From assembly GCA_946411205.1 (NCBI GenBank), contig CAMKDG010000016.1, positions 1 to 40,138 on the forward strand: a stretch of DNA of 40,138 nucleotides, given 5' to 3'. This document shows, in pieces, positions 16,128-28,747 of this stretch. Within the stretch, counting starts at the first letter, position 1. Every line of letters begins with the position of its first letter. A program made the position numbers and the translations under genes. The notes beneath the pieces were generated by a model. That model was not told where the DNA came from and searched no databases. It worked only from the letters and a program-made list of their open reading frames with translations. Source of the DNA: an uncultured Desulfotomaculum sp. Its GTDB lineage: Bacteria; Bacillota; Desulfotomaculia; Desulfotomaculales; Desulfotomaculaceae.

Positions 16128-16163
16128 AAAAAGAAAACAGTCGCATCTTTGTTAGATGCGACC
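16128..16163 (-). terminator. terminator of asrABC
   Basis: The 9-bp stem 16140-16148/16154-16162 has a 5-nt loop, followed on the minus strand by TGTTTTCTTTTT. It separates the asr operon from hcp. Confidence 0.85.
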
Positions 16164-16204
16164 GCTTTGCAAAATTCCATAGCCATACCCTGCCAGATAT
16201 TTTC

Positions 16205-17191
16205 TTATTCTAGATGGATATTTCGATCGTACATGTAGCCGCCGAAATCGATAAAGTGAGCTACTTTTGTCTTAGGGAGCAAGGTAACGTCCCTTAAAAC
16301 TTCTTCTTTAAAAATACTAAATCCGGTTCGATCCACAATATATCCCACGTGTTCCTTGGCCAAGGATCGGTCAATATGTTTATCAATATAGGTATAAAGG
16401 TTACTGCAGACCTTTAAGACGGTAGCCCGATCAGCCCATTCCAAGAAACTGCGGGCGATGCGGGGGTTTTTCTTACCGGTGCGACCCATGATAATCACCC
16501 GGAAATATTGACCTCCCCGGGTCCAAGCTGTTGTGGGACATTTCAGGACACACTCACCGCAGCCAATGCAACGCTTAGGATCTCGTTTTACTCGATGGTT
16601 TTCAAAGGTAAGGGCGCCGGTAGAGACCTTTTGGCAATTCTTCACACAAGCTTGGCAACCAATACAACGAGAGGCTTGGTACAAAGGTTCCACCTGTCCG
16701 ATAATGCCGATGTCTTGCAGGTGGGCTTTGATACAGTCGTTGGGGCAGCCGGTAATGGCAACTTTTACATGCGGGTCGTTAGGATAGATGATTTTTTCCA
16801 CGTCCCACGCCAGCGTGGTTGTATCAAAGACGGCATTGGGACACACCCGGTTGCCAATACAAGCAGCAACATTACGGGTACCTGCGGCAGGATAGCCCTT
16901 GGTGGGATCATCAATGGGGACACCTCTGTTAATTTCCAGCTCCTGAAGCAGGGGAACTAACAAATGATTAATTTCTGTCATCTTGGCAAAGGAAATACCG
17001 GGCACCTCAAAACCCTGACGAGTGGTGAGATGAACAGTGCCGTTACCATACCGTTCGGCAATTTCTTGTACCAAAGGCAAGAACTTTACCGGCAGGTGGC
17101 CTCCGGGCACCCGAATACGCAGACAAGTAAGGTCTCGGTGCTTGGTAATACGCCAGGCATTTTTCATTACTTTCTTGGTATGAATAGACAT
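16205..17191 (-). CDS. asrC: anaerobic sulfite reductase subunit C (siroheme subunit)
   Basis: 328 residues. The siroheme/[4Fe-4S] ligands are Cys111-x5-Cys117 and Cys149-x3-Cys153. Two further [4Fe-4S] ferredoxin motifs follow at Cys176/179/182/186 and Cys208/211/214/218. The N-terminal sulfite reductase half-domain has a TTRQGFE motif. AsrC is the catalytic subunit that reduces sulfite to sulfide by six electrons in the cytoplasm. The longest frame starts at 17272, but the ATG at 17191 is preceded by GGGGGTG and gives the family start, so it is chosen. It is the last gene of asrABC, 13 nt after asrB. Confidence 0.93.
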   Translation of the reverse strand: MSIHTKKVMKNAWRITKHRDLTCLRIRVPGGHLPVKFLPLVQEIAERYGNGTVHLTTRQGFEVPGISFAKMTEINHLLVPLLQELEINRGVPIDDPTKGYPAAGTRNVAACIGNRVCPNAVFDTTTLAWDVEKIIYPNDPHVKVAITGCPNDCIKAHLQDIGIIGQVEPLYQASRCIGCQACVKNCQKVSTGALTFENHRVKRDPKRCIGCGECVLKCPTTAWTRGGQYFRVIIMGRTGKKNPRIARSFLEWADRATVLKVCSNLYTYIDKHIDRSLAKEHVGYIVDRTGFSIFKEEVLRDVTLLPKTKVAHFIDFGGYMYDRNIHLE

Positions 17192-17204: not shown

Positions 17205-18008
17205 TTAATCCAATAGGTTCTTAGCCCGAGTATAGGTAAACACCGGACCTTCCAGACAAACATACGTATCATCTATTTTGCAATGGCCGCACTTACCAAT
17301 GCCACAGCACATCTTCCGCTCAAAGGAAACCCAAATGTGTTCCTCCGTGATGCCTCGTTTTAAAAACTCCTGAGCAGTGTATTTCATCATTACTGGCGGT
17401 CCGACGATAATCACCCGCAGGTCATCTAGATTAATCAGGGGAATTTCCGGGACCCATTGGGTAATCAAGCCCTCTCGACAGGGAAGGGAACTAGCACAGC
17501 CAGACATTTTATCGACCGTTATTATGACATTAAATTGCTTAGACCATGAGGTCAGCTCTTCTTTAAAGAGGACATCATGGGGACTCTTAAAACCGGCCAG
17601 TACATCTAGTCGACGTAGCAGCTCCGGCTGTCGATAAAAGTGGTTAATGATACTTTTTACCGGGGCTAATCCTGTACCTCCGGCAGCAATGACTACGTGC
17701 TTACCGGCCAGATCTGAAACCGGAAACCCGTGACCATAGGGTCCACGCAGGAACAGGTGATCCGCTTCGTCCAAGAGATGGATTACATTGGTTACTTTAC
17801 CCACCCGGCGGATGGTCATTTCGATATAGCCTTCACCAAAATCACTAATAGAAATGGGGCACTCACCAATGCCGGGAAGAGAGACTTCCACAAATTGTCC
17901 CCACTGCGGCTTGAGCTCACAGGCCAGCCGGTAGGTCCAGTCAATGTCTGTTTGTTTCACTACACTGAGTATTTTTGCTTTAAAAGGAAGATATGGGTTG
18001 TTAGACAT
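17205..18008 (-). CDS. asrB: anaerobic sulfite reductase subunit B (FAD/NAD subunit)
   Basis: 267 residues of the ferredoxin-NADP reductase type. An N-terminal FAD-binding barrel (about 1-95, with a RGPYGHGF motif) is followed by an NAD-binding domain starting AAGGTGLAP near 106, and a C-terminal cysteine cluster near 234-250 (CCGIGKCGHC and a later Cys) for a [2Fe-2S] centre as in dihydroorotate dehydrogenase electron-transfer subunits. It passes electrons from NAD(P)H to AsrA/AsrC. Start ATG 18008 has a strong AGGAGGTG ahead and overlaps the asrA stop by 8 nt, so translation is coupled. Confidence 0.93.
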   Translation of the reverse strand: MSNNPYLPFKAKILSVVKQTDIDWTYRLACELKPQWGQFVEVSLPGIGECPISISDFGEGYIEMTIRRVGKVTNVIHLLDEADHLFLRGPYGHGFPVSDLAGKHVVIAAGGTGLAPVKSIINHFYRQPELLRRLDVLAGFKSPHDVLFKEELTSWSKQFNVIITVDKMSGCASSLPCREGLITQWVPEIPLINLDDLRVIIVGPPVMMKYTAQEFLKRGITEEHIWVSFERKMCCGIGKCGHCKIDDTYVCLEGPVFTYTRAKNLLD

Positions 18009-19023
18009 GTTGTTGCACCTCCTGCAAGGCATCACTCAGTTTGTTTACACAGCTAGCAAAGGAAATATATTCCGGACAGACATCGTCGCAGCGGCCACAG
18101 CCCACACACATGGGCAATCCAAAGCGCTTTTTAAAATCATAAACCTTATGCAGTACCTTAAAACGCATTCGTTGCCCCTTGTCCTGACGGAAACTGTGCC
18201 CACCGGCCATGTCCGTAAAACCATCAATTTGGCAACTGGCCCAGACCCGACGTCTTTCACCACACTGAGGATTATCTTCATAGAATAAATCCTGCATGGT
18301 AAAGCAGCTACAGGTGGGACAAGAAGTGTTACAGCGTCCGCAGGCAATGCAGCGGGTTTTGTATTCATCCCAGAGTTTATGGGAAGTGAGAGAGGAAAGG
18401 AGATTTTCCGGTATTTCCGGGAGGGAAACCCGTTGGTTGTTTTGCTGCACAAATTGGGGGGTAACCTGCAGCGGCTTTCCCAGGGAAGCAAAGAGGTTGG
18501 CAAAGTCTTCCTTTACGTCGCATAGATAGGCCCCGTTGTCCGGACGGAGAGAGAAAGAATAATTCTCTGTCCGCTGAGTGCCCATGGATACACAAAAGCA
18601 ATTATCAAAGCTGGTAGGGCAGTCTAACAGGGCAAGCTTCAGTTTACTTCGTAGCTTGAAGTAATAAGAATCCGGATGAGGTCCGTTTTCCAGCATAATT
18701 TTATCCAAGCGGGTTACTGCATGGATATCACAGGAGCGCAGCAAGACGATCATGTCCTTAGAGTCTATTTGGGGTTCCCGGTATTCATCTTCGGTAAAAT
18801 AAAATAAAGTTTGCGTAATGGGGAAAAAGACTTCTTTCGGGGAGAAATAGGACTTTTGATCAAAGACTACATCTTCGATACAATTAATTTCGCCATAGCC
18901 AATTAGATCTGTATTAGAGAAGCGACCCTGACCGGGCAAAAGTACCGGTGCGTAGATTTTATAATCTTTCTTTAGCGCCAATAGAAGCTGGTTCATGTTA
19001 GCACGTGAAAGCTGATAACCCAT
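18001..19023 (-). CDS. asrA: anaerobic sulfite reductase subunit A (Fe-S subunit)
   Basis: 340 residues. The N-terminal ~220 residues are the HyfB/Hyc-like 4Fe-4S dicluster accessory region with a RSCDIHAV motif near 93. Two ferredoxin clusters sit at the C-terminal side, around CIACGRCNTSC (about 228-238) and CVGCGRCDDVCP (about 306-317). AsrA carries electrons between AsrB and the siroheme subunit. It is the first gene of asrABC, starting ATG 19023 after GAGAGGG. A CRP/FNR-type palindrome at 19087-19100 lies where a class II activator would sit. Confidence 0.92.
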   Translation of the reverse strand: MGYQLSRANMNQLLLALKKDYKIYAPVLLPGQGRFSNTDLIGYGEINCIEDVVFDQKSYFSPKEVFFPITQTLFYFTEDEYREPQIDSKDMIVLLRSCDIHAVTRLDKIMLENGPHPDSYYFKLRSKLKLALLDCPTSFDNCFCVSMGTQRTENYSFSLRPDNGAYLCDVKEDFANLFASLGKPLQVTPQFVQQNNQRVSLPEIPENLLSSLTSHKLWDEYKTRCIACGRCNTSCPTCSCFTMQDLFYEDNPQCGERRRVWASCQIDGFTDMAGGHSFRQDKGQRMRFKVLHKVYDFKKRFGLPMCVGCGRCDDVCPEYISFASCVNKLSDALQEVQQHV

Positions 19024-19058
19024 CTATATCCCTCTCTTTCATGCAATTATTAACTAAA

Positions 19059-19100
19059 AATATAGCACAGGGAGGTGGGGCGGAGAGTGATTTATCTCAC
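19059..19100 (-). promoter_or_regulatory. asrABC promoter with CRP/FNR-type site at about -41.5
   Basis: A TATATT -10 box is at 19064-19059 on the minus strand. The -35 position reads CTCTCC, a poor match. The palindrome GTGA-N6-TCAC at 19087-19100 is centred at 19093.5, about 41.5 bp upstream of a start near 19052, the classic class II position of CRP/FNR-family activators that compensate for a weak -35. The protein is not identified in this window. Confidence 0.6.
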
Positions 19101-19126
19101 GACTAAGGTAGGCAGGAAGAAAAATG

Positions 19127-19171
19127 CAATAAAAATGGGCTTGTCTGTACCAAGAGTATGAGACAAGCCCA
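19127..19171 (-). terminator. terminator of the universal stress protein gene
   Basis: The 11-bp stem 19136-19146/19161-19171 is followed on the minus strand by TTTTTATTGC and another T run. Confidence 0.85.
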
Positions 19172-19175
19172 AATA

Positions 19176-19607
19176 CTATTTTACCAGTGTCACCGGGCAA
19201 TGTGCTTGGTGCAGAACCCGATGACTTACACTTCCCAGAACAAGACCCTGTAAATCTGTTAACCCCCGTGAGCCTAACACAATATGAGTAAAATCATTCA
19301 GCTTGGCAAACTCCGTTATTTTATCGCCGGGATGGCCGTTAATAAGTTGCTTCTTGATAGTGACCCCTACCGTATCAAAAGCAACCGTTTGCTCATTAAG
19401 AACTTGCCAGCCTTGGGCGATAACTTCCTTTTCGATCTCTGGAATTTCCGTGGAAGAATTAGCCATCTTATGGAGCTCTTTTTTGAAATTTACTACGTGA
19501 ACCACCGTAATATCTAGATCCTGCCATATCCTGGCAAGGTTGGCTAGATACTGAGCAGCTCGTGCAGCATTTTTCGATTCATCTACAGCAAGCAGGTATT
19601 TAAACAT
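19176..19607 (-). CDS. universal stress protein, UspA family
   Basis: 143 residues with the Rossmann-like Usp fold: an N-terminal LLAVDES strand (Asp at residue 8), and near the end the ATP-binding pattern G-x2-G-x9-G-S (GSRGL...LGSVS at about 116-130), so it belongs to the ATP-binding Usp type. Its role is in general stress or energy limitation. A longer frame from 19637 exists, but the ATG at 19607 has GAGAGGGAG 6 nt ahead and gives the standard family N-terminus. It is monocistronic. Confidence 0.9.
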   Translation of the reverse strand: MFKYLLAVDESKNAARAAQYLANLARIWQDLDITVVHVVNFKKELHKMANSSTEIPEIEKEVIAQGWQVLNEQTVAFDTVGVTIKKQLINGHPGDKITEFAKLNDFTHIVLGSRGLTDLQGLVLGSVSHRVLHQAHCPVTLVK

Positions 19608-19724
19608 GGTTTTCTCCCTCTCAAGGTATTGGAACACACTATAGCATTATCTAGCCTCAAAAGCTGTGATTTATGTCTATAAAAACTCGTTTCCACCAAG
19701 TTTTTATACTTTCTGATTTGCATA

Positions 19725-19751
19725 AGAAAAACCAGGTTTTAGAACCTGGTT
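19725..19751 (-). terminator. terminator of the RarD-type gene
   Basis: The 9-bp stem 19730-19738/19743-19751 has a 4-nt loop; minus-strand TTTTTCTT follows. Confidence 0.85.
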
Positions 19752-19754
19752 ATG

Positions 19755-20717
19755 CTAAAAGTTTTTATGCGGTTCTTTGGTTTTCCAAAATGCTTTTTTA
19801 AACAGCAAAGCTTCCAATTGCAGTAAGGGCTTGGTCTTAGCCAGAGAGAAAAGAAGCAAGGCAGACCAGATAAAGCTAAAGGAAACCAAATGTACAGAAG
19901 TAAAAGATTCTTTATAAAGGGAAACACCTAAGATTAAAGCAATCGTTGGAGCAATATATTGCAGCAATCCCACAATGGTTAAGGGAAGCCGCTGAGCACC
20001 GCTGGCAAACAAGATCAGAGGAACTGCTGTTACAATACCGGCACCCATTAAAAGAAGAGGTATAGAAGATACAGAAAAATCAAAGAAGCCAATCCCTTGA
20101 GTATGCAACATACCAAGATAAAGGAAGGCAATGGGACAGACGAGGAGAGTTTCTGTCGTAATACCCGTAACGGATCCCAGCTTAACAGTTTTCTTAACCA
20201 AGCCGTATAGACCAAAACTAATTGCCAGGGACAAGGCTATCCAGGGGACTGTCCCGAAATGAAGGGTTATATTTAAAACACCGAGTAGAGCTAGGAAAAT
20301 GCCCATATATTGCCAAAAAGTTAACCTTTCTTTTAAAACGACAATTCCCAGTAAAACACTCACTAACGGGTTAATATAGTAGCCGAGACTAGTTTCAATG
20401 ATGTGATTATGGTTAACTGCCCAAATATAAGTACACCAGTTAACACTTATTAAAATAGAAGCTAGTACCATGCTGATAAGCTTTTTACGATCTTGGATAA
20501 TTTCTTTTAGCTCCGTCAAATAGCTTTTAATTTTTCCCGTGACTAATAGCAAAGCTATCATAAAGACAAAGGCCCACAGGATACGGTGAGCCAAGATCTC
20601 AAAGGCGGGTACTTTCTCAACTAGTTTCCAATAGGCGGGAAGCAATCCCCATAAGATGTAAGCAATAGTGGCGGCAATTATACCCATACCTTGTTTGTTC
20701 GATGTGTCTAGTTTCAT
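19755..20717 (-). CDS. rarD: RarD-type EamA transporter
   Basis: 320 residues with about ten membrane helices in two EamA repeats. The N-terminal GIIAATIAYILWGLLPAYWK and the NWCTYIWAVNHNHIIETSLGYYINPL region are characteristic of RarD (the chloramphenicol-sensitive-protein family). The C-terminal ~25 residues are cytoplasmic and basic. EamA proteins export small metabolites; the substrate of RarD is not known. It starts ATG 20717 and is monocistronic with its own terminator 4 nt after the stop. Confidence 0.9.
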   Translation of the reverse strand: MKLDTSNKQGMGIIAATIAYILWGLLPAYWKLVEKVPAFEILAHRILWAFVFMIALLLVTGKIKSYLTELKEIIQDRKKLISMVLASILISVNWCTYIWAVNHNHIIETSLGYYINPLVSVLLGIVVLKERLTFWQYMGIFLALLGVLNITLHFGTVPWIALSLAISFGLYGLVKKTVKLGSVTGITTETLLVCPIAFLYLGMLHTQGIGFFDFSVSSIPLLLMGAGIVTAVPLILFASGAQRLPLTIVGLLQYIAPTIALILGVSLYKESFTSVHLVSFSFIWSALLLFSLAKTKPLLQLEALLFKKAFWKTKEPHKNF

Positions 20718-20845
20718 TTTTTATCTCCACATATATATTTATTCTACAAATTTAATTGTAGTGATAGTGAGTTTAAAATGCAACCTCAATTACAAGACAA
20801 TAAAATCCCCCGCAGGTGTGTGAAAAATTTTCCTACACTTTATGA

Positions 20846-20851
20846 TATAAT
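20846..20851 (+). promoter_or_regulatory. -10 box of the lipoprotein gene
   Basis: A perfect TATAAT at 20846-20851, 29 nt before the start codon. The -35 region (TTTTCC) is a weak match. Confidence 0.45.
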
Positions 20852-20879
20852 TTAGAAAAAAACAATAGGAGGATACCCC

Positions 20880-21281
20880 TTGAAAAGACTATTCATGTTT
20901 GCGCTACTTTTTTCCATAATTATTACAGGTTGCAGTTCTCAGAACGGCCCTGCAGCAGATAAAAAAGTTACCGAGCAAGAGGTACGCCAGGCGGTGACCG
21001 AACTAGTAAACGCTATCAATAGTGGCAATGTGGAAGTGGTTCAAAAATACGTGGGCAAGGCTGGCCCTGTTGCTAAACAATTAGTGGATAAGCTTAAAAA
21101 TAACATTACGTTATCCAATGTAAGGGATATCTCTATTGAAGGCACCACAGCCCAAGCCACTGTTACCCTGGAAGTGATTCCCCTAGACATAAAAAAAGAT
21201 GTTACTCTAACCTTCGATATTACGGATGTTTTGGTTCTTAATAACCCACTGGGACTGTTATCCATTTTACTCTCTAAATGA
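20880..21281 (+). CDS. small lipoprotein of unknown function
   Basis: 133 residues. The N-terminus is a lipoprotein signal with hydrophobic residues 4-15 and the lipobox ITGC, so Cys18 would be lipidated and the protein anchored outside on the membrane. The mature part has a helical region (about 30-75) and a strand-rich region (about 80-122), the helix-then-sheet pattern of small NTF2-like or DUF4878-type lipoproteins. That is a fold guess only. Start: TTG 20880 with AGGAGG and 7-nt spacing; no ATG is possible upstream. A terminator follows 20 nt after the stop. Confidence 0.75.
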   Translation: MKRLFMFALLFSIIITGCSSQNGPAADKKVTEQEVRQAVTELVNAINSGNVEVVQKYVGKAGPVAKQLVDKLKNNITLSNVRDISIEGTTAQATVTLEVIPLDIKKDVTLTFDITDVLVLNNPLGLLSILLSK

Positions 21282-21301
21282 GGACTGTAGTTTAGGAGAT
21301 T

Positions 21302-21329
21302 AGCCTGGGCAACCAAGGCTTTTTCTTTT
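21302..21329 (+). terminator. terminator of the lipoprotein gene
   Basis: AGCCTGG at 21302-21308 pairs with CCAAGGCT at 21313-21320 with a single bulge, followed by TTTTCTTTT. Confidence 0.8.
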
Positions 21330-21456
21330 ATCAAAAAGTGTATAGAAACAATAAATGATAAAATTCCGTTTTTTGTATGTTATATTATTGAATATATCTT
21401 TCCCATTCGAGAAAATAATGTAAAAATAGCTATTTATATAGAAGGGAATAAAAAAG

Positions 21457-22125
21457 ATGAGCAGAAGGGTTTTTGGGACATTCCTGGTTATTATAATAGT
21501 CATGCTTGCCACAAGTTCATTAACCATCTCTAAATTATTTAATATGAATTCAAATGCTAAGGAAATTGCCCAAACATGGGTGCCCAGTATCCAACTAATG
21601 GGTTGGATGAATGGAGCGGTATCAGATGTCCCGAGACTCGTGCTGCAAATAACTCTAGAAACTGAGACTGAGGAAATGGCTGAACTGGAGAATGAGGAAC
21701 TTAGGCCCTTATTAAAGCAAATTCAGGAAAAGCTTGTCATCTATGAAAAAAAATATATTAGTAATAATGAAGAAGCAATTTTATATGAGCACTTTAAAGA
21801 GAAATGGGTTCTTTATTTAAACCATCTCCCGTCCATTGTTGCGGCGGGTAAAGAAAATAAATTTGATGTTGCTAACCGGATGATTAAAGAAACGTACCCA
21901 ATTTGGCAGGACGCCAATAATACCATTAACCAAATAATAGATATGAAAAACAAGGAGGCTCAAAGGGCTTCCCAAAGTTCTTTTACCTTATTTGAATCGA
22001 GTATTTTATTAATTCTTTTTCTGAATCTTATTGCCTTTATATTGATTGCAACAATTGTCCTTTGGATGTCATCTAAAGAATTCAAGGAATTGATTTACTT
22101 GCTTACAAAATCTCAAGAAAAATAG
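21457..22125 (+). CDS. orphan four-helix-bundle (4HB_MCP-type) sensor protein
   Basis: 222 residues. TM1 is at about 6-27, an outside helical region at 28-178 looks like the four-helix-bundle ligand domain of chemoreceptors and kinases (including a VPSIQLMGWMNGAVSD stretch), TM2 is at about 180-205, and a short cytoplasmic tail of about 16 residues follows. Normal relatives continue into HAMP and a signalling domain; this one stops. The 220 bases after the stop show no frame for a lost output domain, and a terminator hairpin follows, so it is a natural end or an old truncation. AGAAGGGA precedes ATG 21457. It may pair with another protein through its membrane helices. Confidence 0.75.
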   Translation: MSRRVFGTFLVIIIVMLATSSLTISKLFNMNSNAKEIAQTWVPSIQLMGWMNGAVSDVPRLVLQITLETETEEMAELENEELRPLLKQIQEKLVIYEKKYISNNEEAILYEHFKEKWVLYLNHLPSIVAAGKENKFDVANRMIKETYPIWQDANNTINQIIDMKNKEAQRASQSSFTLFESSILLILFLNLIAFILIATIVLWMSSKEFKELIYLLTKSQEK

Positions 22126-22155
22126 CGAACGATTGTTGTTCACACCTGTAATGAA

Positions 22156-22207
22156 AAACTAAGGCTTTTGCCGATGTTTTAAAAACAGGGCGCTGGCCTT
22201 AGCTTTT
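22156..22207 (+). terminator. terminator after the orphan sensor gene
   Basis: CTAAGGC at 22159-22165 pairs with GCCTTAG at 22196-22202 with a large loop, followed by CTTTTC. It is weaker than the others in this window. Confidence 0.55.
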
Positions 22208-22252
22208 CTAATAACACTGTATAGGAAAAAAGTCCTGAAACAAATCAACTTT

Positions 22253-22305
22253 AGTGGATAAAATTGTGCATAACCCTGTGGATAAGCTACAATATGTGTG
22301 GATAA
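22253..22305 (+). promoter_or_regulatory. cluster of four DnaA-box-like 9-mers
   Basis: All four lie in the same orientation and resemble TGTGGATAA (complement of TTATCCACA): AGTGGATAA 22253-22261, TGTGCATAA 22265-22273, TGTGGATAA 22277-22285 and TGTGGATAA 22297-22305. The last two are perfect and the first two have one mismatch each. The first three start exactly 12 bp apart. The region is AT-rich and between genes, 43 nt beyond the end of the PilZ gene. There is no dnaA or dnaN here, so it is more likely a DnaA-binding/titration cluster than the chromosomal origin. Confidence 0.6.
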
Positions 22306-22347
22306 TTGCGGCTATAAGTGTTAATTTTCCATAAATTGTAAAAATAA

Positions 22348-22953
22348 TTACTTATTAAGTCTGACTGACAGAAGTGTTAAGGAGCCCTGCAAACGGGAAC
22401 TCAGATTGATAAACTGAAAACCTGCAAAGGGGATATTATCGTAATGCTTCCGCCAGGCCAATTTTACATCCAGCTCAAAGGGGAAATCGTCAATTTGCAT
22501 CTGCGCCTTAATGGGTTGTTTAGAATGGAGTATTTCTTCCAGTTTGGGAACCAGATACACCATCATACCTCCGGCGGAGAAATTTACCAGAGCACTTTGT
22601 GTTTGTAAGGCTCCAGACCAAAAGAGTATGTTAGTAGAATGATGGGCGCGGAGAAACCTTCTTTCTTGGGAATCCAATAAAATTTCTGGCATGTGCAGGC
22701 CATAAAATGTATCGGTTTGTGTTCCTAGTATGCCTACCATTGTTTCTGCCTGATAGAATCCTTGGGGTAAAGAAACACCTACTTTAACCCGTTGGTTTTT
22801 TTGTAAGACCAGCACTTGGTTCCCCTCTTTAGGCAGGTTAACCCAAAAGTAATCTGGTTCCACTTTAGTTACCATGGCATTAAATGGTGGCTGAATATCG
22901 GCTTGGAGTATGATTTTTTGTTTGGGAGTGATTATCTCCTTTCCCTTGGACAT
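22348..22953 (-). CDS. PilZ-domain c-di-GMP-binding protein (YcgR-like)
   Basis: 201 residues: an N-terminal YcgR/PilZN-like beta domain (about 10-92) and a C-terminal PilZ domain (about 95-198). The c-di-GMP contacts are present: R98-x3-R102 (in ERRFLRA) and N124-x-S126-x2-G129. YcgR-like proteins slow the flagellar motor or change motility in response to c-di-GMP. No flagellar gene is adjacent, but an HD-GYP protein lies elsewhere in the window. Start ATG 22953; the purine signal is weak (GGCGGTG region). Confidence 0.85.
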   Translation of the reverse strand: MSKGKEIITPKQKIILQADIQPPFNAMVTKVEPDYFWVNLPKEGNQVLVLQKNQRVKVGVSLPQGFYQAETMVGILGTQTDTFYGLHMPEILLDSQERRFLRAHHSTNILFWSGALQTQSALVNFSAGGMMVYLVPKLEEILHSKQPIKAQMQIDDFPFELDVKLAWRKHYDNIPFAGFQFINLSSRLQGSLTLLSVRLNK

Positions 22954-23155
22954 AGCTTTTCACCGCCCTCTATACATAATTAAAAACAGATTTAAAATGA
23001 TTAAAGTAAATAGTTTCTCTAGTCATGGTAAAAACCCTGTTGAGTAAACCATTTTTTAAAAGAAAAAACCCTTAAATTGCAAGAGTTAGCAGGAGTTTAA
23101 AGGGAAATGTCAAAGTTACTTAGTTATCGAATTCAAAAAAATTTGGGGGGTAGTC

Positions 23156-23857
23156 ATGGTAAACGGAACGATTTTAATTGCAGATGATGATCGGCGTATC
23201 GTTAAAATCATCACCCATAGTTTAGAACAGGAAGGTTACAAAGTAATGGCTGCCCAAGATGGCGAGGAAGCCGTGAGATTGGCAACAACCTTGCACCCAG
23301 ATCTAGTGATTATGGATATTATGATGCCTAAACTGGATGGTTTAGAGGCATCCCAAAAGATAAAAGCCAAAGTTGACGTACCTATTATTATCCTGTCAGC
23401 AAAGGATGATGTAGTGGATAAAATTGTCGGATTTAAGATGGGTATTGACGATTATCAAACCAAGCCCTTTAGTCCGGCAGAGTTAGCTCTAAGGGTAAAA
23501 GCAGTATTGCGTCGAAGTAAAGGTAATCAAGAGCAAAAGAGAAATAAAGAAATATTAGAATACCCCCATGTTTACATTGAATACGCAACTCGCTTGGTTC
23601 GTATCTGGGGACAAGAAATCAGCCTGACCGCTAAAGAATTTGATATGCTTTGGCTGATGGCTTCTCATCCTTCTCAAATTTTCTCCCGCTTACAGCTATT
23701 AGAAAAAATTTGGGAAAGTCATTATGAAGGTGATGAAGACACCGTTACAGTACATGTTAGAAGGTTACGACGGAAAATTGAACAGGATGCCGCCAATCCA
23801 GATCTTATAAAAACCGTTTGGGGTGTGGGCTATAAATTTGAGGCTCCCAAACAGTAA
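23156..23857 (+). CDS. orphan OmpR-family response regulator
   Basis: 233 residues with a receiver domain (Asp10-Asp11-Asp12, phospho-acceptor Asp54 in MDIMMP, Lys103 in TKPF) and a winged-helix domain (about 135-230) with VTVHVRRLRRKIE as recognition helix. It is very similar in layout to the regulator at 8553 but has no kinase gene next to it; both neighbours on the right read the other way and end in a shared terminator. Start ATG 23156 after GGGGGG. Its kinase must be encoded elsewhere. Confidence 0.92.
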   Translation: MVNGTILIADDDRRIVKIITHSLEQEGYKVMAAQDGEEAVRLATTLHPDLVIMDIMMPKLDGLEASQKIKAKVDVPIIILSAKDDVVDKIVGFKMGIDDYQTKPFSPAELALRVKAVLRRSKGNQEQKRNKEILEYPHVYIEYATRLVRIWGQEISLTAKEFDMLWLMASHPSQIFSRLQLLEKIWESHYEGDEDTVTVHVRRLRRKIEQDAANPDLIKTVWGVGYKFEAPKQ

Positions 23858-23890
23858 AAAATAGCCTTTGGTCACAACCAAGGGCAAAAT

Positions 23891-23943
23891 TAATACAAAA
23901 AGAGACTTCGCGATTTTTTGCCGAAGTCTCTTTTTTTGTATTA
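23891..23943. terminator. bidirectional terminator between the regulator and ylbF-like gene
   Basis: A long inverted repeat, 23891-23910 with 23922-23943 (about 20 bp with a 2-nt asymmetry), holds A-rich and T-rich outer arms. It serves the two convergent genes. Confidence 0.85.
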
Positions 23944-23950
23944 ATTTACT

Positions 23951-24331
23951 TTACTCAGCAGTTTCCTCTTCATCAACAGGGAGCGTTTCCTCAGAGGCTC
24001 GAATGCCTGCCCGAATCTTAGTGCTGATTAAGGACATAACTCCTTGAAACTTCCCATGGGCTTCGAAAGAAGCCTTAACGACGGGATTTTCAATAGCTTT
24101 AGCCTCGGCTTCCTGCATATTTTTTTTATCTACATCAGATAAAGGAATACCAGCTAACTTTTTCTTTTGAATGTCCATCTGCAGTTGTTGAAGTCCTTCT
24201 ACCAGTTGGCGGGCATTTTCATCATGCAGAAGAGCAGCTTCAGCATTTTTCATGTTTTGGTATTCTTCTGTTTCGGAGAGAATTTTACCCAGTTGAATAC
24301 AGAGATCTAATGCTTCATCAATTTTTGCCAA
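23951..24331 (-). CDS. YlbF/YmcA family protein
   Basis: A 126-residue all-helical protein of the Com_YlbF family, matching by the N-terminal ALDLCIQLGKILSET helix, a long charged coiled helix (about 40-75) and the NPVVKASFEAHGKFQ motif. In Bacillus subtilis YlbF, YmcA and YaaT form a complex that affects RNase Y, biofilm formation, competence and sporulation. Start: TTG 24331, with GGAGGTG 7 nt ahead. The acidic tail after residue 112 is probably disordered. It is transcribed after the YkgJ-type gene, 66 nt apart, possibly as one unit. Confidence 0.85.
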   Translation of the reverse strand: MAKIDEALDLCIQLGKILSETEEYQNMKNAEAALLHDENARQLVEGLQQLQMDIQKKKLAGIPLSDVDKKNMQEAEAKAIENPVVKASFEAHGKFQGVMSLISTKIRAGIRASEETLPVDEEETAE

Positions 24332-24397
24332 CAGTTTTCACCTCCTATTCCATATCTTCTCCAAAATATAACAAAATCCTTCAACTTAGAAAAACCC

Positions 24398-25132
24398 TTA
24401 AAACTGGAAAAGGGTGGCCTTTTCTATAAAGCCATTTAACAGTTCCTTTTCTCCGCTATCAGTAAATTGCTTCATCACCTTAATTTTTCGGGCTCTAGCA
24501 CCGTTGCCCAACACTGTATTACACAAGTGGATGGGATAGGGTAGCAGGGTGCCTTCCTGATCTACTAGTTCTTGGGAGAAAAAGTTATAGTCTAGTGTGC
24601 CGATTTGAACCGCCAGCCCAGCCATTGAGGATTTGTCTTGGTAGCCTTCCGGGAAAATCACTTTATCGCACCAAGCTAAATCATAATTTACAATTTCCTC
24701 AGGAATTGTAATGTCGTATTCTTCTTTAAATTTTTTGGCTAAGTGTTTTAAACCACGATCGCCAATTTCAAAATCTTCTTTGGATAGTAATCCATAGGCC
24801 CGACAGGAGAAGGGGCGCACTTGGTAAATGGAGCATTTGTTGTCTTGTCCTAAGAAGGGACAGGTTTGCTCGGTATCCACCAGTTCCAGATAAAAGTACT
24901 CAGTGGATTTCTTTAGAAGTTCCTGCCAACGATCTTTCATATTGTCACGAATGTATTTATACATATTTAAATACTCAATAAAGAAAGCCGGGGGACTACC
25001 CCATTTGCAACATGCTGCACAACTGGCACAGGTGCTCTCGGGTAACATAGCGTAAGCCTTGTTAAGTTTGGCAAAAAGCTCGTTCTGTTCAGCCTTTCCC
25101 AGGGCAGAATAAAGTTCGACTTGTTGCAACAT
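24398..25132 (-). CDS. YkgJ family cysteine-cluster protein
   Basis: 244 residues. The N-terminal half holds the Zn/Fe-chelating YkgJ pattern: CASCAACC at about 35-42, a TCPFL near 90, KCSIY near 99 and a VRPFSCRAYG near 105-114. Such proteins bind a metal or Fe-S cluster through eight conserved Cys; function is not settled. The C-terminal ~100 residues have further Cys and His. AAGGAGATG precedes ATG 25132. It is divergent from the hdrCB-sat block with a 567-nt region between them. Confidence 0.82.
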   Translation of the reverse strand: MLQQVELYSALGKAEQNELFAKLNKAYAMLPESTCASCAACCKWGSPPAFFIEYLNMYKYIRDNMKDRWQELLKKSTEYFYLELVDTEQTCPFLGQDNKCSIYQVRPFSCRAYGLLSKEDFEIGDRGLKHLAKKFKEEYDITIPEEIVNYDLAWCDKVIFPEGYQDKSSMAGLAVQIGTLDYNFFSQELVDQEGTLLPYPIHLCNTVLGNGARARKIKVMKQFTDSGEKELLNGFIEKATLFQF

Positions 25133-25409
25133 TTAAGCTCATCTCCTTCAAGTTAACTATCAGCTAGTACCAATTATAACAAATATCCAGTTGGCTGGCG
25201 ACAGATTCGGAAACAAAAAAATAACGGCATAATAAAGAGGGGAACTGTATAAAGTAATAATAGGAGTTTGTCATTATAAAAAATAAATATTTCAGTGTAA
25301 CGGTGCAGGATTATAGGACAAGATAGCGAATAAAGTTACAACAAGCACAAGCGATTGTCGAAGTAACCAGCTTGATTAGTTTCCTAATGTGAAAAACGAA
25401 GCATTTTTG

Positions 25410-25466
25410 GTGAAAAATGTCAACTTAACGATACTACTTGTCAATTAAAAATAGTAATGATATATT
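25410..25466 (+). promoter_or_regulatory. hdrCB distal promoter with near-match CRP/FNR site
   Basis: TTGTCA (25438-25443), a 17-bp spacer and TATATT (25461-25466) form a good promoter. GTGA-N6-TCAA at 25410-25423, one base off the palindrome found at asrA and sat, is centred about 56 bp upstream of the predicted start. The surrounding 25133-25699 gap has no gene. Confidence 0.5.
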
Positions 25467-25519
25467 TAGTATTATAATTTGTCAGGTAGTTGACTAAAAA
25501 ACCTTTACTAATTCATTTT

Positions 25520-25549
25520 TTGAATTTATAAGACTTTATAAAATATAAC
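25520..25549 (+). promoter_or_regulatory. hdrCB proximal promoter
   Basis: TTGAAT (25520-25525), an 18-bp spacer and TATAAC (25544-25549), giving a leader of about 143 nt before ATG 25700. It may work together with the distal promoter. Confidence 0.5.
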
Positions 25550-25699
25550 TTTACACCTAAACATAAGGGGGTGTCGGGGGAATCTTGCGTTAGTTCGTGT
25601 GCGGATATTCACAAGCCGTTTGGTTAGTGAGTATCGGTTTGACGGTTTGGGAGTTGCCAGACTGTATGGAAGAATGCCCGAAGGGAAGTGAGAGAGTAA

Positions 25700-26302
25700 A
25701 TGTCTGAAGCTGTGGCAAAGGAAAAGGCAACAGTAACATACGATTCGGAGTTTACTAAAAAGGTTTATGGGATGGAGAACGGCAAATGGGTAAAAATGTG
25801 CATGCAGTGTGGGATTTGTCCTACTACCTGTGCACTTAAGGAGAAAATGGATCTTTCACCCAGACGCATTATTCAGCTCATCCGGGCCGGTCGTAAGGAT
25901 GAAGTCCTAAAGGCCAACACTATGTGGTTATGTACTTCGTGCTATACCTGTGCCTGTCGATGTCCCCGTGGGGTTCCAATGATGGATGTAATGCATGACC
26001 TCCGTCACTTGGCTGTGGAGAATGGAATCAAACATAACTCCCAGTCTATGGCCGAAGTTTATGAGAAAGATGTTACTAAGCGTGGACGTATTTGGGAAGG
26101 TGGACTTACCTTAAATTACGGTTTGAAAATAGGATTAGGGAATGCCATTAAAATGGCACTGGATATGCAAGACGTAGGTAAGGGTTTAATGCTCCACCGC
26201 CGCTTACCATTATTGCCGCCCAAGGGTGTTAAAGACCCTGCTAAATTGCGTGAGGTTTTAAAACGAGCTGCTGAAATTGCTCAGAAGGAGGGTGGTCACT
26301 AG
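25700..26302 (+). CDS. hdrC: HdrC-like Fe-S subunit of the APS-reductase electron pathway
   Basis: 200 residues with two [4Fe-4S] motifs, CMQCGICPTTC (about 34-44) and CTSCYTCACRCP (about 78-89), the HdrC pattern. In methanogens HdrC passes electrons to HdrB; in Gram-positive sulfate reducers hdrC and hdrB stand near qmoAB and are thought to replace the membrane subunit QmoC. This one precedes sat by two genes. No membrane segment is seen, so it is cytoplasmic. The hdrB ATG (26304) directly follows the hdrC stop, and a GGAGG at 26287-26291 inside hdrC serves it. Exact partners are inferred from gene order. Confidence 0.88.
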   Translation: MSEAVAKEKATVTYDSEFTKKVYGMENGKWVKMCMQCGICPTTCALKEKMDLSPRRIIQLIRAGRKDEVLKANTMWLCTSCYTCACRCPRGVPMMDVMHDLRHLAVENGIKHNSQSMAEVYEKDVTKRGRIWEGGLTLNYGLKIGLGNAIKMALDMQDVGKGLMLHRRLPLLPPKGVKDPAKLREVLKRAAEIAQKEGGH

Positions 26303-26303
26303 T

Positions 26304-27173
26304 ATGAAATACTCAATTTATCCCGGCTGTTCAAGTGAAGGAACCGCTGTTAGTTACCATCACTCTGCAATGGAAGTGGCTAAGGTATTGGGACTAGAGC
26401 TTAAAGAGATAGAAGATTGGAACTGTTGTGGCTCCACCGTTTTATCCAGTGTCACCGGCCAGTTTGCTGCCGATGTATTAGCTTCTAGAAACCTGGCGTT
26501 GGCTGAAAAGATGGGCCAAGAGGATGTAGTTACCACCTGTAGTTCCTGCTATGCCATTTTGGGCAACGTCAATAAAAAATTTGCCGATAATAAGTTTAAA
26601 TATAACGCTAATGATGCACTTAGTAAGGATAGCCTTAGTTACGATGGTAAACTAAAGGTTCGTATGTTACTGGATGTTATGGTTTCCGATTTGGGGTTAG
26701 AAAAAATTGCTTCCAAAGTAGTCAAGCCTTTAAAGGGACTTAAGGTAGCCGGTTATGTAGGTTGCCAAACTGTCAGAGCACTCAGGGAATTCGACAACTG
26801 TGAAAACCCGACGTTTCTTGACAATGTAATTGAATGTCTGGGCGCAGAGCCGGTTGATTTTTCTCATAAACTCAAATGCTGTACCGGCATCATGGCAATG
26901 ACTTCACCCGAAGTAACTATTTCGGCCTTATACCCGATTTTAAAGAGTGCCTACGAAGCAGGGGCAGATTTAATCGTTACCCCCTGTCCTCTGTGTCAGA
27001 TGAACTTGGATGCTTTTCAAATTAAGGTCAACAAAGCCTATGGCACCAAGTATAATATACCTGTACTTTTCTTTACTCAACTAATGGCCCTTGCCTATGG
27101 TCTAGACCGCAAGGCCGCCGGACTGGATTATTGTATTGTATCTCCCAATAACGCTCTGAAGCAGTGGGTTTAG
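26304..27173 (+). CDS. hdrB: HdrB-like subunit with two CCG domains
   Basis: 289 residues. Two cysteine-rich CCG domains are present: Cys9 with NCCGST near 42 and TCSSCYA near 80, then GC(QT) near 153 with LKCCTGI near 192 and TPCPLCQMN near 231. In heterodisulfide reductase these domains bind noncubane [4Fe-4S] clusters and reduce a disulfide. Here it should exchange electrons with a thiol/disulfide or quinone pool on behalf of QmoAB. The start at ATG 26304 fits the family N-terminus (KYSIYPGCS); the longer frame from 26277 overlaps hdrC without reason. Confidence 0.88.
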   Translation: MKYSIYPGCSSEGTAVSYHHSAMEVAKVLGLELKEIEDWNCCGSTVLSSVTGQFAADVLASRNLALAEKMGQEDVVTTCSSCYAILGNVNKKFADNKFKYNANDALSKDSLSYDGKLKVRMLLDVMVSDLGLEKIASKVVKPLKGLKVAGYVGCQTVRALREFDNCENPTFLDNVIECLGAEPVDFSHKLKCCTGIMAMTSPEVTISALYPILKSAYEAGADLIVTPCPLCQMNLDAFQIKVNKAYGTKYNIPVLFFTQLMALAYGLDRKAAGLDYCIVSPNNALKQWV

Positions 27174-27368
27174 AAAAGGTAGCAAAAAGCAACTATTATT
27201 GCAAATACTTTTTTGCACAAATTCTAATAAATTTATAAAAGGTAGCAGGAAAACCAAAAACTAGCGAGAATATGTAGTATTAATCACAAGTAACGGAGCC
27301 TTGCAATACCAACTGGCACCTGCTTAGATAGAGAGAGCGGGGGTGCCTGTTAACATCAGATAATTCAA

Positions 27369-27427
27369 GTGAATATGATCACGTATAGTTTTTAAAATGT
27401 GACACGCTTGAATTGGTTTCATAAAAT
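27369..27427 (+). promoter_or_regulatory. sat promoter with CRP/FNR-type palindrome
   Basis: GTGACA (27399-27404), a 17-bp spacer and TAAAAT (27422-27427) form the best promoter upstream of sat. The palindrome GTGA-N6-TCAC at 27369-27382 is centred about 59 bp upstream of the predicted start near 27434, close to the class I position (-61.5) of CRP/FNR activators. The 398-nt gap holds no gene. Confidence 0.55.
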
Positions 27428-27571
27428 AAAACCCTGGCAGGGGTTGGTTATGGCTAATTAACAATCTGATGTAAACAGTGTACCAGCTAAGTGGTATAAA
27501 ACTATAAGTGTTTGTATTCACAAATCAGGACATGGTCCAATTTTAAAAAAAACAAGGAGGCATGTTGCACT

Positions 27572-28747
27572 ATGGCATTAGTTCAACCGCATGGTGGAAA
27601 ATTAACCCCTGTATTGGCCCCGAAAGAACAATGGGCCGAACTGAAAGCCAAAGCTGAATCCCTACCGGTTATCCGTATGAGCTCCCGTGAAACTTCCGAC
27701 TGCTTAATGCTCGGTATGGGTGCTTTCTCCCCTCTGACAGGTTTTATGTCTCAAGCTGACTATGAAGGCGTTATTGCTGACATGCACTTGGCAAACGGTT
27801 TAGCTTGGCCCCTGCCTGTAACTCTGGCAGTTACCGCAGAACAAGCCGAAGGCATCGCTGCTGGTCAAGAACTGGCTCTGGTTGACGACGAGTCTGGCGA
27901 GTATGTTGCTATCATCACCGTTGCTGATAAGTATGGTTATGACAAAGTAAAAGAATGCAAATCCGCTTTCTTTACCGACGATGCTGACCATCCTGGCGTA
28001 CAAAAAGTGATGGCTCAGGGCGAAATTTATGTTGGCGGCGACATCGTAACTTTCACCGAATTAGGTTACGACGAGAAATATGCCGGCTACTATGCTCACC
28101 CTGCCGAAACTCGCGCTCTGTTTGAGTCCAAAGGCTGGAGCACCGTTTGTGCTTTCCAAACCCGTAACCCTCTGCACCGCTCCCACGAGTTCCTGTGCAA
28201 GATTGGTAACGAAGTTTGTGATGGTTTGTTCCTGCACCCCATCGTTGGTAAACTGAAGAAGGGTGATATCCCTGCTGAAGTTCGTTTCGAAGCTTACAAA
28301 GCTCACATGAAATATTACTTCAACGAAAAAACCATCGAAATGCGTGTATATCCTATGGAAATGCGTTATGCTGGTCCTAAGGAAGCTATCCTGCACGCTG
28401 TATTCCGTCAAAACTTTGGTTGCTCCCACATCCTCGTTGGTCGTGACCACGCTGGTGTAGGCAGCTACTATACTTCTTACCAAGCTCAGGAAATCTTTGA
28501 TGCCTTTAAGCCCGGCGAACTCCTTTGCCAGCCCATCAAAGTTACCTCTGCTTACTATTGCACCAAGTGCCAAGGTATGGCTACCGAAAAATCTTGCCCT
28601 CACGGTCCAGAAGATCGTATCGCCATCAGCGGCACCAAGGTTCGTGAAATGTTTGGTAGAGGCGAATTGCCCCCGCTCGAATTCGGACGTAAAGAAGTTC
28701 TGGAAATTCTCACCAAGTACTACCAAGGCTTGGATAGCGGCAAGTAA
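27572..28747 (+). CDS. sat: ATP sulfurylase (sulfate adenylyltransferase)
   Basis: 391 residues. It activates sulfate with ATP to APS and pyrophosphate, the first step of dissimilatory sulfate reduction. The PUA-like N-terminal domain (about 1-165) is followed by the catalytic domain with the ATP-binding QTRNPLHRSHE near 195-205 and GRDHAGVG near 290. A Cys pair cluster near 329-341 (CTKC ... C) fits the zinc site seen in bacterial/archaeal Sat. Start: ATG 27572 with AAGGAGG at 27554-27560; the longer frame from 27512 crosses the ribosome binding site. Codon use is strongly biased as in very highly expressed genes. Confidence 0.96.
   Translation: MALVQPHGGKLTPVLAPKEQWAELKAKAESLPVIRMSSRETSDCLMLGMGAFSPLTGFMSQADYEGVIADMHLANGLAWPLPVTLAVTAEQAEGIAAGQELALVDDESGEYVAIITVADKYGYDKVKECKSAFFTDDADHPGVQKVMAQGEIYVGGDIVTFTELGYDEKYAGYYAHPAETRALFESKGWSTVCAFQTRNPLHRSHEFLCKIGNEVCDGLFLHPIVGKLKKGDIPAEVRFEAYKAHMKYYFNEKTIEMRVYPMEMRYAGPKEAILHAVFRQNFGCSHILVGRDHAGVGSYYTSYQAQEIFDAFKPGELLCQPIKVTSAYYCTKCQGMATEKSCPHGPEDRIAISGTKVREMFGRGELPPLEFGRKEVLEILTKYYQGLDSGK

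Follow-up and report, generated by a model that had tools for sequence, protein, structure and literature searches.

A probable class II CRP-family operator upstream of asrABC in an uncultured Desulfotomaculum sp., and a separate palindrome upstream of sat

Two palindromes of the form GTGA-N6-TCAC precede sulfur genes in a 40,138-base stretch of DNA (the window) from an uncultured Desulfotomaculum sp., a Gram-positive sulfate reducer, and an earlier note on the sequence proposed that a single CRP/FNR-type regulator activates both asrABC and sat from them. Is this one regulon, or do the two sites have different roles? A search of either strand of the whole window confirmed that GTGATTTATCTCAC upstream of asrA and GTGAATATGATCAC upstream of sat are the sole exact matches, with no further exact site seen at aprBA within the window. 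Two matches per 40 kb are only mildly unusual in themselves, since 100 dinucleotide shuffles of the window gave a mean of 0.35 matches and seven of them held at least two. Across the genome the bare palindrome shows no enrichment (32 occurrences versus 46 for a reversed control pattern), and counting it was dropped in favor of position-aware tests. When paired with TANNNT at the class II distance, the palindrome is enriched among 10 genomes of the family, with 31 matches versus 9 for the control. Conservation and position thus carry the weight rather than the count in the window. Table 1 presents the features of both loci.

Table 1. Features of the asrABC-hcp and sat loci, in window coordinates.
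Feature	Coordinates	Strand	Basis or remark
hcp, hydroxylamine reductase / hybrid cluster protein	14681..16051	-	TIGR01703 and NF003658 over cut-off
Terminator-like hairpin between asrC and hcp	16134..16168	-	15-pair stem, then CTTTTTAAAA
asrC	16205..17191	-	TIGR02912, 450 bits, over cut-off; start ATG checked
asrB	17205..18008	-	TIGR02911, 372 bits, over cut-off
asrA, anaerobic sulfite reductase subunit A	18001..19023	-	TIGR02910, 504 bits, over cut-off
Extended -10 TGC-TATATT, asrA promoter	19059..19067	-	predicted start near 19052
CRP/FNR-type operator GTGAGATAAATCAC upstream of asrA	19087..19100	-	exact in 4/4 close genus orthologues, own included
Terminator-like hairpin of the gene upstream of asrA	19136..19171	-	read directly from the sequence
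Sigma-H-like promoter AGGA-N17-GAAT, sat leader	27247..27271	+	predicted start near 27278
Leader hairpin GGCACC...GGTGCC	27315..27347	+	between promoter and palindrome
Second palindrome GTGAATATGATCAC upstream of sat	27369..27382	+	exact in 4/9 same-genus genomes, weak motif score
Conserved GTGTTTGTATTCAC adjoining sat	27508..27521	+	one mismatch from the palindrome; alignment of 9
sat, sulfate adenylyltransferase	27572..28747	+	NF003166 and TIGR00339 over cut-off

The asr genes were assigned by profile scans, that of asrC having been run with one additional residue in front, and a plasmid search with asrA gave no match. A terminator-like hairpin lies between asrC and hcp and has a counterpart, by eye, at the equivalent position in the relatives G001 and G003; it argues against simple co-transcription and weakens the idea of a single asrABC-hcp transcript. 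The hcp gene of the window has no operator with zero or one mismatch within 420 bp upstream. On the other side of asrA, a second such hairpin sets apart a gene that resembles a universal stress protein by eye; a hairpin scan with a loop limit of 8 reported none there.

At asrA, 29 nt separate the center of the palindrome (19093.5) from the initial T of TATATT on the minus strand (19064-19059), which on recomputation is the -41.5 position that had been claimed. The -35 is poor or absent while the -10 is usable, as is typical of class II promoters, and a promoter scan returned no sigma-70-like promoter in 18950-19250, weak evidence as shuffles average 0.8. The distance of 29 nt to the predicted -10 recurs in all four asrA promoters of the genus, with TGC-TATATT in G001 and in the genome of the window (G000), TGT-TAATAT in G003 and TGT-TACTCT in G005. 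Very likely, then, the asrA palindrome is the docking site of a CRP-family activator, a reading of binding and activation to which conserved position, fixed spacing and covariation with the recognition helix all point. The expectation that the palindromes would be conserved in relatives was borne out in full at asrA and only in part at sat.

The matching operator is found again at the asr genes of many other anaerobes. Among named asrA loci, 32 of 79 carry the exact operator within 300 bp, where 200 shuffled sets gave a mean of 0.135 and a maximum of 2, and TANNNT stands at 29 nt for 30 of 33 sites. These 79 loci leave aside L212, in which AsrA begins off the contig. CRP genes linked to asr were sought within the fetched DNA by phmmer with three queries among frames of at least 90 residues. 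When the linked CRP has an RE recognition helix, the exact operator is present at 37 of 38 loci, 35 of them with TANNNT at 29 nt, although the search extended back as far as the CRP gene and covered more than 300 bp for some (26/38 within 300 bp). The operator is absent from both loci with another helix and present at 6 of the 39 without a linked CRP, a class that includes cut-off loci, since for some only a short stretch precedes asrA. At L167 and L171 an RE-helix CRP gene lies 2.9 kb downstream of where asrA begins, and neither locus carries an exact site. At some loci a transporter-like gene separates the linked CRP gene from asrABC. For Salmonella, a 2026 paper calls for more work on asr regulation and proposes YeiE as an activator (PMC12880088). 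No account of a CRP-type asrABC regulator was found in an open-access collection from which the bulk of the subscription literature is missing. The pairing of a linked CRP gene with an operator at a fixed position offers a direct regulator candidate in culturable anaerobes.

Turning to the regulator, a CRP/FNR-type model presupposes a suitable gene, and the genome encodes five over the Pfam cut-off. Only one, on the separate contig C191 and not linked to asr, has an RE recognition helix (SRETVNR), the other four being without RE. The C191 protein is present in all nine same-genus genomes, at 78-100% identity in eight (own included) and as two adjoining pieces in G002; in G004 it is the sole CRP over the cut-off, and both hcp units of that genome carry the site. 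The helix of C191-type proteins reads S(S/T)RET(V/I)NR, and RE is retained in all 24 relatives of the order for which the helix is shown. The R180/E181 rule (PMC1274295) speaks for the RE-helix CRP. By eye, the gene lies between methyltransferase-like and cooS-like genes, with cooS downstream in six of nine genomes. It does not adjoin hcp, whereas hcpR genes frequently, though not universally, do so (PMC545781 and PMC1274295). Autoregulation was rejected, as no site with zero or one mismatch lies within 350 bp upstream of the gene at nine loci.

In a CRP tree, the C191 protein and the asr-linked CRPs belong to different clades; the tree omits five loci with CRP hits (L163, L207, L208, L213 and L216), and its 41 'asr' rows include L167, L171 and L186, which are not within 1.9 kb of asrA, and L205_425, a second, distant CRP outside the asr clade. 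Because of this separation, the evidence from asr-linked loci supports the operator and not the C191 protein. A search of solved structures with the C191 protein gave best chains of 115-116 bits, which we take to be actinobacterial, and 48 bits for 2gau, presumably an HcpR. The Arg-Ser pair of the cAMP pocket is seemingly missing by eye, which makes cAMP an unlikely effector.

The hcp genes provide a further link. An exact site lies within 420 bp of all nine free-standing short-form hcp genes and of seven of eight long-form genes, the eighth having one at about 520 bp, while none of four window-type hcp genes carries the site. TANNNT follows at 29 nt in 9/9 short-form units, eight of them via another site that has one mismatch, and in 6/7 of the long-form units shown. 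Control of hcp genes, as in an HcpR regulon, is suggested by these positions. In other genera, with 300 bases searched, an hcp site with at most one mismatch accompanies a C191-type CRP in 13 of 18 cases versus 1 of 7 without it (p 0.021), and an exact site in 8/18 versus 0/7 (p 0.057), statistics that ignore ancestry and are confounded with hcp form, since five of the seven 'without' cases are long-form (L292-L296) and all 18 'with' cases short-form. The likely regulator at asrA here is the C191 protein, on account of its helix, its presence in all nine same-genus genomes and the case of G004.

At sat, the quoted geometry is right: with GTGACA-N17-TAAAAT (27399-27427) setting the start, the center at 27375.5 falls at -58.5. 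In the same-genus alignment, this class I promoter is kept in G001 only, and no class I or class II -10 is conserved across the genus. The palindrome is conserved in some members of the genus; it has a mismatch in G002, G003 and G008 and is not found at the corresponding position in G005 and G007, which rules out an essential role. Placing sat under the asrA regulator in activating geometry, as the earlier note did, is not supported, being weakened by motif score and distribution: the site scores 6.6 bits in G000 versus 16.2 bits at asrA, in a model trained on 15 sites, none from G000, although the G001 asrA site is nearly identical to its own; none of 24 sat loci from other genera carries the exact palindrome; and the class I promoter is confined as described. 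Motif score alone does not discriminate, as an intragenic match (L033) reaches 19.0 bits. The conserved GTGTTTGTATTCAC also scores poorly, at -1.8 bits in G000. The sat palindrome is probably a separate, lineage-restricted element, and the earlier interpretation as a whole is partly supported.

What the sat palindrome does may be read in several ways. One tentative proposal, to which we assign somewhat less than even odds, makes it a road-block or leader element; situated about 97 nt downstream from a sigma-H start, it would act as a repressor site or as an RNA hairpin. The sigma-H-like elements AGCAGGA and GAATA are invariant in 9/9 same-genus genomes, and AGGA-N17/18-GAAT recurs at 8 of 24 other sat loci (plain-shuffle mean 0.6, maximum 3); a conserved promoter further upstream would place the palindrome in the leader, where any bound factor would therefore lower sat expression. 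One long hairpin, smaller in G005 and absent from G008, separates promoter from palindrome in 7/9 genomes, and by eye the palindrome is lengthened by flanking C and G into a stem of 5 bp in G004 and G006. Against this stand the patchy occurrence of the palindrome within the genus and a sat start that is only predicted; Rfam returned one match in the leader, far under the gathering score. The alternative of one HcpR-like regulator for both genes, an activator at asrA with a role at sat like that proposed for HcpR in Desulfovibrio, draws on the TGTGA-N6-TCACA motif predicted there at hcp, sat and apsAB (PMC545781 and PMC1274295), on the recurrence of the exact sat palindrome in three of eight genomes (G001 left out) where 0/2000 shuffle sets had at least three, and on a one-mismatch sat site of 15.3 bits in G008. 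It is unlikely nonetheless, given that the G000 score resembles several intragenic matches, that the exact site is missing from all 24 sat loci of other genera, that no class I or class II -10 is conserved across the genus and that the C191 protein is at most a candidate HcpR.

Two other explanations bear on both sites and are far less probable. The operator of the NADH-responsive repressor Rex, TTGTGAA-N4-TTCACAA, contains GTGA-N6-TCAC, and the genome encodes a protein matching the N-terminal domain family of Rex (PF06971). A Rex site is predicted at asrABC of Thermoanaerobacterium saccharolyticum, albeit of a different sequence (PMC5886521). Rex operators are nevertheless very improbable here: the hcp and asr sites do not read GTGAA...TTCAC at their inner bases, inner and outer bases at asrA and sat differ from the operator, and the fixed -41.5 spacing and linked CRP genes favor a CRP-family activator. 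Chance could account for the number of palindromes in the window, as the shuffles and the unenriched genome suggest, but as an origin of both it is hardly credible, being opposed by conservation and fixed spacing at asrA and by the 2000 shuffle sets at sat, which treat related genomes as independent.

The reading we prefer, at a probability of roughly 0.72, is a class II operator at asrA, the RE-helix CRP of contig C191 as its likely activator and that of hcp, and a sat palindrome that is a separate leader element. Judged from sequence, a dimeric CRP/FNR-family activator would bind the asrA operator where a good -35 is absent and recruit RNA polymerase to the extended -10 promoter of asrABC. 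The C191 protein, as likely regulator, would also activate free-standing hcp genes, with stress by nitrite, NO or hydroxylamine as the plausible signal, or possibly sulfite. At sat, the palindrome would not be a class I site for this activator but would lie in the predicted transcribed leader. Both asrABC and hcp are higher under nitrate than sulfate in Acididesulfobacillus (PMC10949509). Because of that response and the operator type shared by asr and hcp here, the 'assimilatory-type' label for asrABC may be wrong, and asrABC in a sulfate reducer could be recast as a partner of hcp. A bolder and rather doubtful extension is that the asr operator was kept while its regulator was swapped, an adjoining RE-helix CRP reading it in clostridia and some spirochaetes and a cooS-side RE-helix CRP of another clade in Desulforamulus, tying asrABC to the nitrosative-stress set of hcp; in part of the genus, the same protein would block sat through the palindrome in the sigma-H leader, a nitrite-versus-sulfate switch of separate evolutionary origin from Desulfovibrio HcpR.

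Comparison with known systems brings out what is shared. Class II promoters of Escherichia coli CRP, with TGTGA-N6-TCACA centered at -41.5 and an RE...R recognition helix, have the same motif, position and helix as this case; the C191 protein differs in the seeming loss of the cAMP-pocket pair. Thermoanaerobacter tengcongensis, like the present organism a Gram-positive anaerobe, has a crp2-hcp pair and a CRP-like site at hcp (PMC1274295), but its regulator adjoins hcp. The Desulfovibrio HcpR regulon (wTGTGAnnnnnnTCACAw) resembles this case in its half-site TGTGA, in having hcp for its main target and a putative sulfite/nitrite reductase operon as another, and in its sites near sat (PMC545781 and PMC1274295). 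It differs in that the candidate regulator here is next to a cooS-like gene, that the sat site is weak and not common to the order, and that Desulfovibrio sat and apsAB sites overlap the -10 box while the sat palindrome here does not. The asr-linked CRP/FNR regulators of Clostridium and other anaerobes share operator, spacing and RE recognition helix with this case, while their genes lie beside asrABC and their clade is different from that of the Desulforamulus candidate.

Close asrA orthologues (E < 1e-170) occur in four of the nine same-genus genomes, and all four carry an exact GTGA-N6-TCAC palindrome at -77, -77, -73 and -75 relative to the start codon. In every one, 29 nt separate the palindrome centre from an extended -10 (TGC-TATATT in two genomes, TGT-TAATAT and TGT-TACTCT in one each), although the asrA region of G000, the window's own genome, is nearly identical to that of G001 and the independent cases therefore number at most three. 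The CRP/FNR-type class II site that the earlier note placed at asrA, centred at -41.5, is thus conserved at the orthologous promoters. The asrA, asrB, asrC, hcp and sat genes of the window are all named by NCBIfam above cut-off, and asrA of D. aeronauticus DSM 10349 is 94% identical to that of the window. That D. aeronauticus gene occupies positions 70047-71066 of its contig, exactly as asrA does in G001, which is accordingly the probable genome of this species and would make the genus Desulforamulus.

A scan of the window agrees with the earlier note that there are exactly two exact palindromes, and re-measurement reproduces the class II geometry described at asrA and the near-class I position described at sat. 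Taken alone, the pair is weak evidence, since window shuffles average 0.35 palindromes and 7 of 100 reach two. The genome-wide scan proposed earlier does not favor the bare pattern, with 32 matches in G000 (3.62 Mb, 210 contigs, 94.7% complete) versus 46 for the reversed control. Across G000 and nine other family genomes, eight of them of the same genus, the class II pattern GTGA-N6-TCAC-N22-TANNNT gives 31 matches versus 9 for its reversed control. The 30 matches whose loci were read lie upstream of hcp (8), asrA (4) and, with names assigned by eye, arsenite-permease-like (3), nuoA-like (2) and ferredoxin-like (1) genes; the rest are inside or adjoining other genes. The nuoA-like cases are L140 and L136 (G000 and G005), and G001 has a similar match. 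The ferredoxin-like gene (L154 of G007) is small, begins 137 bases from its palindrome, and recalls frdX, an HcpR target. A further G000 locus, L031, holds two exact palindromes at 1997 and 2237, with CoA-transferase-like and TauE/SafE-like exporter genes (by eye) on either side.

Beyond the genus, named asrA loci were taken from the best 80 of 192 relatives (79 used); being mostly Clostridium, they yield counts over non-independent loci. An exact palindrome lies within 300 bp upstream of asrA in 32 of 79 (200 shuffle sets: mean 0.135, maximum 2), and TANNNT is exactly 29 nt from the centre at 30 of 33 sites. In many loci a CRP/FNR protein is encoded directly 5' of asrA. Where a CRP gene within 1.9 kb encodes a recognition helix with Arg-Glu (RE), 37 of 38 loci have the exact site, 35 with TANNNT at 29 nt, and the sole exception (L169) carries a one-mismatch site. 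The site is absent from both loci whose linked CRP has another helix and present in six of the 39 that lack a linked CRP. At 11 loci with a linked RE-helix CRP, the exact class II operator lies more than 300 bp from asrA and follows directly on the CRP gene. At ten of them (L164, L177, L179, L195, L197, L198, L199, L209, L210, L214) it precedes an intervening transporter-like gene, of FNT type by eye and possibly a sulfite or nitrite channel; at L216 no transporter-like frame was found between the CRP gene and asrA. CRP and site also occur together in Tissierella, Romboutsia, Anaerocolumna, Alkalithermobacter, Treponema and Brachyspira, among others. Counter-cases are L167 and L171, where an RE-helix CRP is encoded 2.9 kb downstream and no site is present. 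At L208 and L213 the asr-linked CRP has a helix of RSALTR type and a GTGA operator is absent; these two proteins may read some other sequence.

Most hcp genes of the genus carry the same type of site. Free-standing short-form hcp has an exact site 97-134 bases 5' of the predicted start in 9/9 and a second, one-mismatch site 23 bp nearer the gene in 8/9; the gene-proximal site is 29 nt from TATGAT, TAAGAT or TATTAT in all nine. Seven of eight long-form genes have an exact site within 420 bp upstream and the eighth (G008) has one at ~520 bp; TANNNT stands at 29 nt in six of the seven long-form units examined for it. None of the four window-type hcp genes has a site within 420 bp; three of them follow asrC and the fourth is at another place in G007. 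Within G000, sites therefore mark the short form on contig C159 and the long form on C72, and the window's own hcp has none. Reading asrABC and this hcp as a single transcript is tempting but unsupported, given the terminator-like hairpin between them; by eye, a hairpin also occupies the equivalent place in G001 and G003.

Coordinates of features in the window
Feature	Position	Remarks
Terminator-like hairpin	16134-16168	asrC/hcp gap; 15-pair stem and T-rich tail
asrA palindrome	19087-19100	exact GTGA-N6-TCAC
CAAATACTTTTTTGCACAAATT	27202-27223	directly 3' of gene preceding sat, 5' of sigma-H-like promoter
Sigma-H-like promoter	27247-27271	AGGA-N17-GAAT; core bases invariant in 9/9 same-genus genomes
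sat leader hairpin	27315-27347	folds in 7/9 same-genus genomes
sat palindrome	27369-27382	exact GTGA-N6-TCAC
GTGTTTGTATTCAC	27508-27521	conserved
GGAC-ATG-GTCC small hairpin	27528-27538	follows GTGTTTGTATTCAC; directly 5' of sat ribosome-binding site

That one regulator is shared by asrA and sat, as the earlier note proposed, appears doubtful. Among the nine same-genus genomes the sat palindrome is exact in G000, G001, G004 and G006, has one mismatch near the place in G003, G008 and G002, and is absent there in G005 and G007. With G001 left out, three exact cases in eight genomes exceed all 2000 shuffle sets. Against a shared regulator, the G000 sat site scores 6.6 bits versus 16.2 for asrA (training sites, 16.2-26.2), a score that is only a guide because a within-gene match in L033 reaches 19.0, and the exact palindrome is found in 0/24 sat loci of other genera. 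The outer bases of the palindrome differ, and the class I promoter is retained in G001 alone. The sat palindrome is best considered on its own, apart from the asrA operator. Invariant upstream of sat in all nine genomes are AGCAGGA and GAATA and, further upstream within the CAAATACTTTTTTGCACAAATT stretch, CAAA, TTTT and CACAAATT. AGGA-N17-GAAT is spaced like a sigma-H promoter, and AGGA-N17/18-GAAT lies 5' of 8/24 other-genus sat genes (plain shuffles: mean 0.6, maximum 3). If this promoter is real, the palindrome would lie ~97 nt inside the sat transcript, past the leader hairpin, and dissimilatory sulfate activation driven by a transition-phase sigma factor would be notable. The leader hairpin matches no Rfam family; judged by eye, its stem bases appear to covary.

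The family presupposed by the proposal of an HcpR-like regulator is present, with five CRP/FNR genes above the Pfam cut-off in G000. Only the protein encoded on contig C191, unlinked to asrA, has the RE helix; it contains no cysteines. Since R180 pairs with G3 and E181 with A6 in the published residue-base rule (PMC1274295), this CRP should read TGTGA. Close relatives occur in 9/9 same-genus genomes (the G002 copy as two adjoining pieces), with a cooS-like gene (by eye) 3' in six, and in G004, where both hcp units carry sites, it is the only CRP/FNR protein above cut-off. In a tree that carries a long-branch warning, the C191 type forms its own clade (99/96), and 40 of the 41 asr-locus CRPs group apart from it (100/99). 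Outside the genus, 25 hcp loci (one per genome, 300 bp searched) include eight with an exact site and 14 with at most one mismatch. The latter occur in 13/18 genomes with a C191-type CRP versus 1/7 without (Fisher p 0.021; exact sites alone, p 0.057), and a site with TANNNT at 29 in 9/18 versus 0/7 (p 0.027); these values ignore kinship and are confounded by hcp form, five of the seven genomes without the CRP having long-form hcp.

At asrA, operator, spacing, conservation and covariation with the recognition helix are all observed. A CRP dimer bound at -41.5 would substitute for the absent -35 contact and turn on asrABC, and the free-standing hcp genes would be turned on with it, probably under nitrosative (or sulfite) stress. 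The literature searched, mostly open-access, gave no account of CRP-type regulation of asrABC; it took in work on HcpR (PMC1274295, PMC545781) and related work (PMC2940859, PMC12090745, PMC5886521, PMC12915319, PMC12880088). In Acididesulfobacillus, asrABC is up 29-fold and hcp 30-fold during growth on nitrate versus sulfate (PMC10949509).
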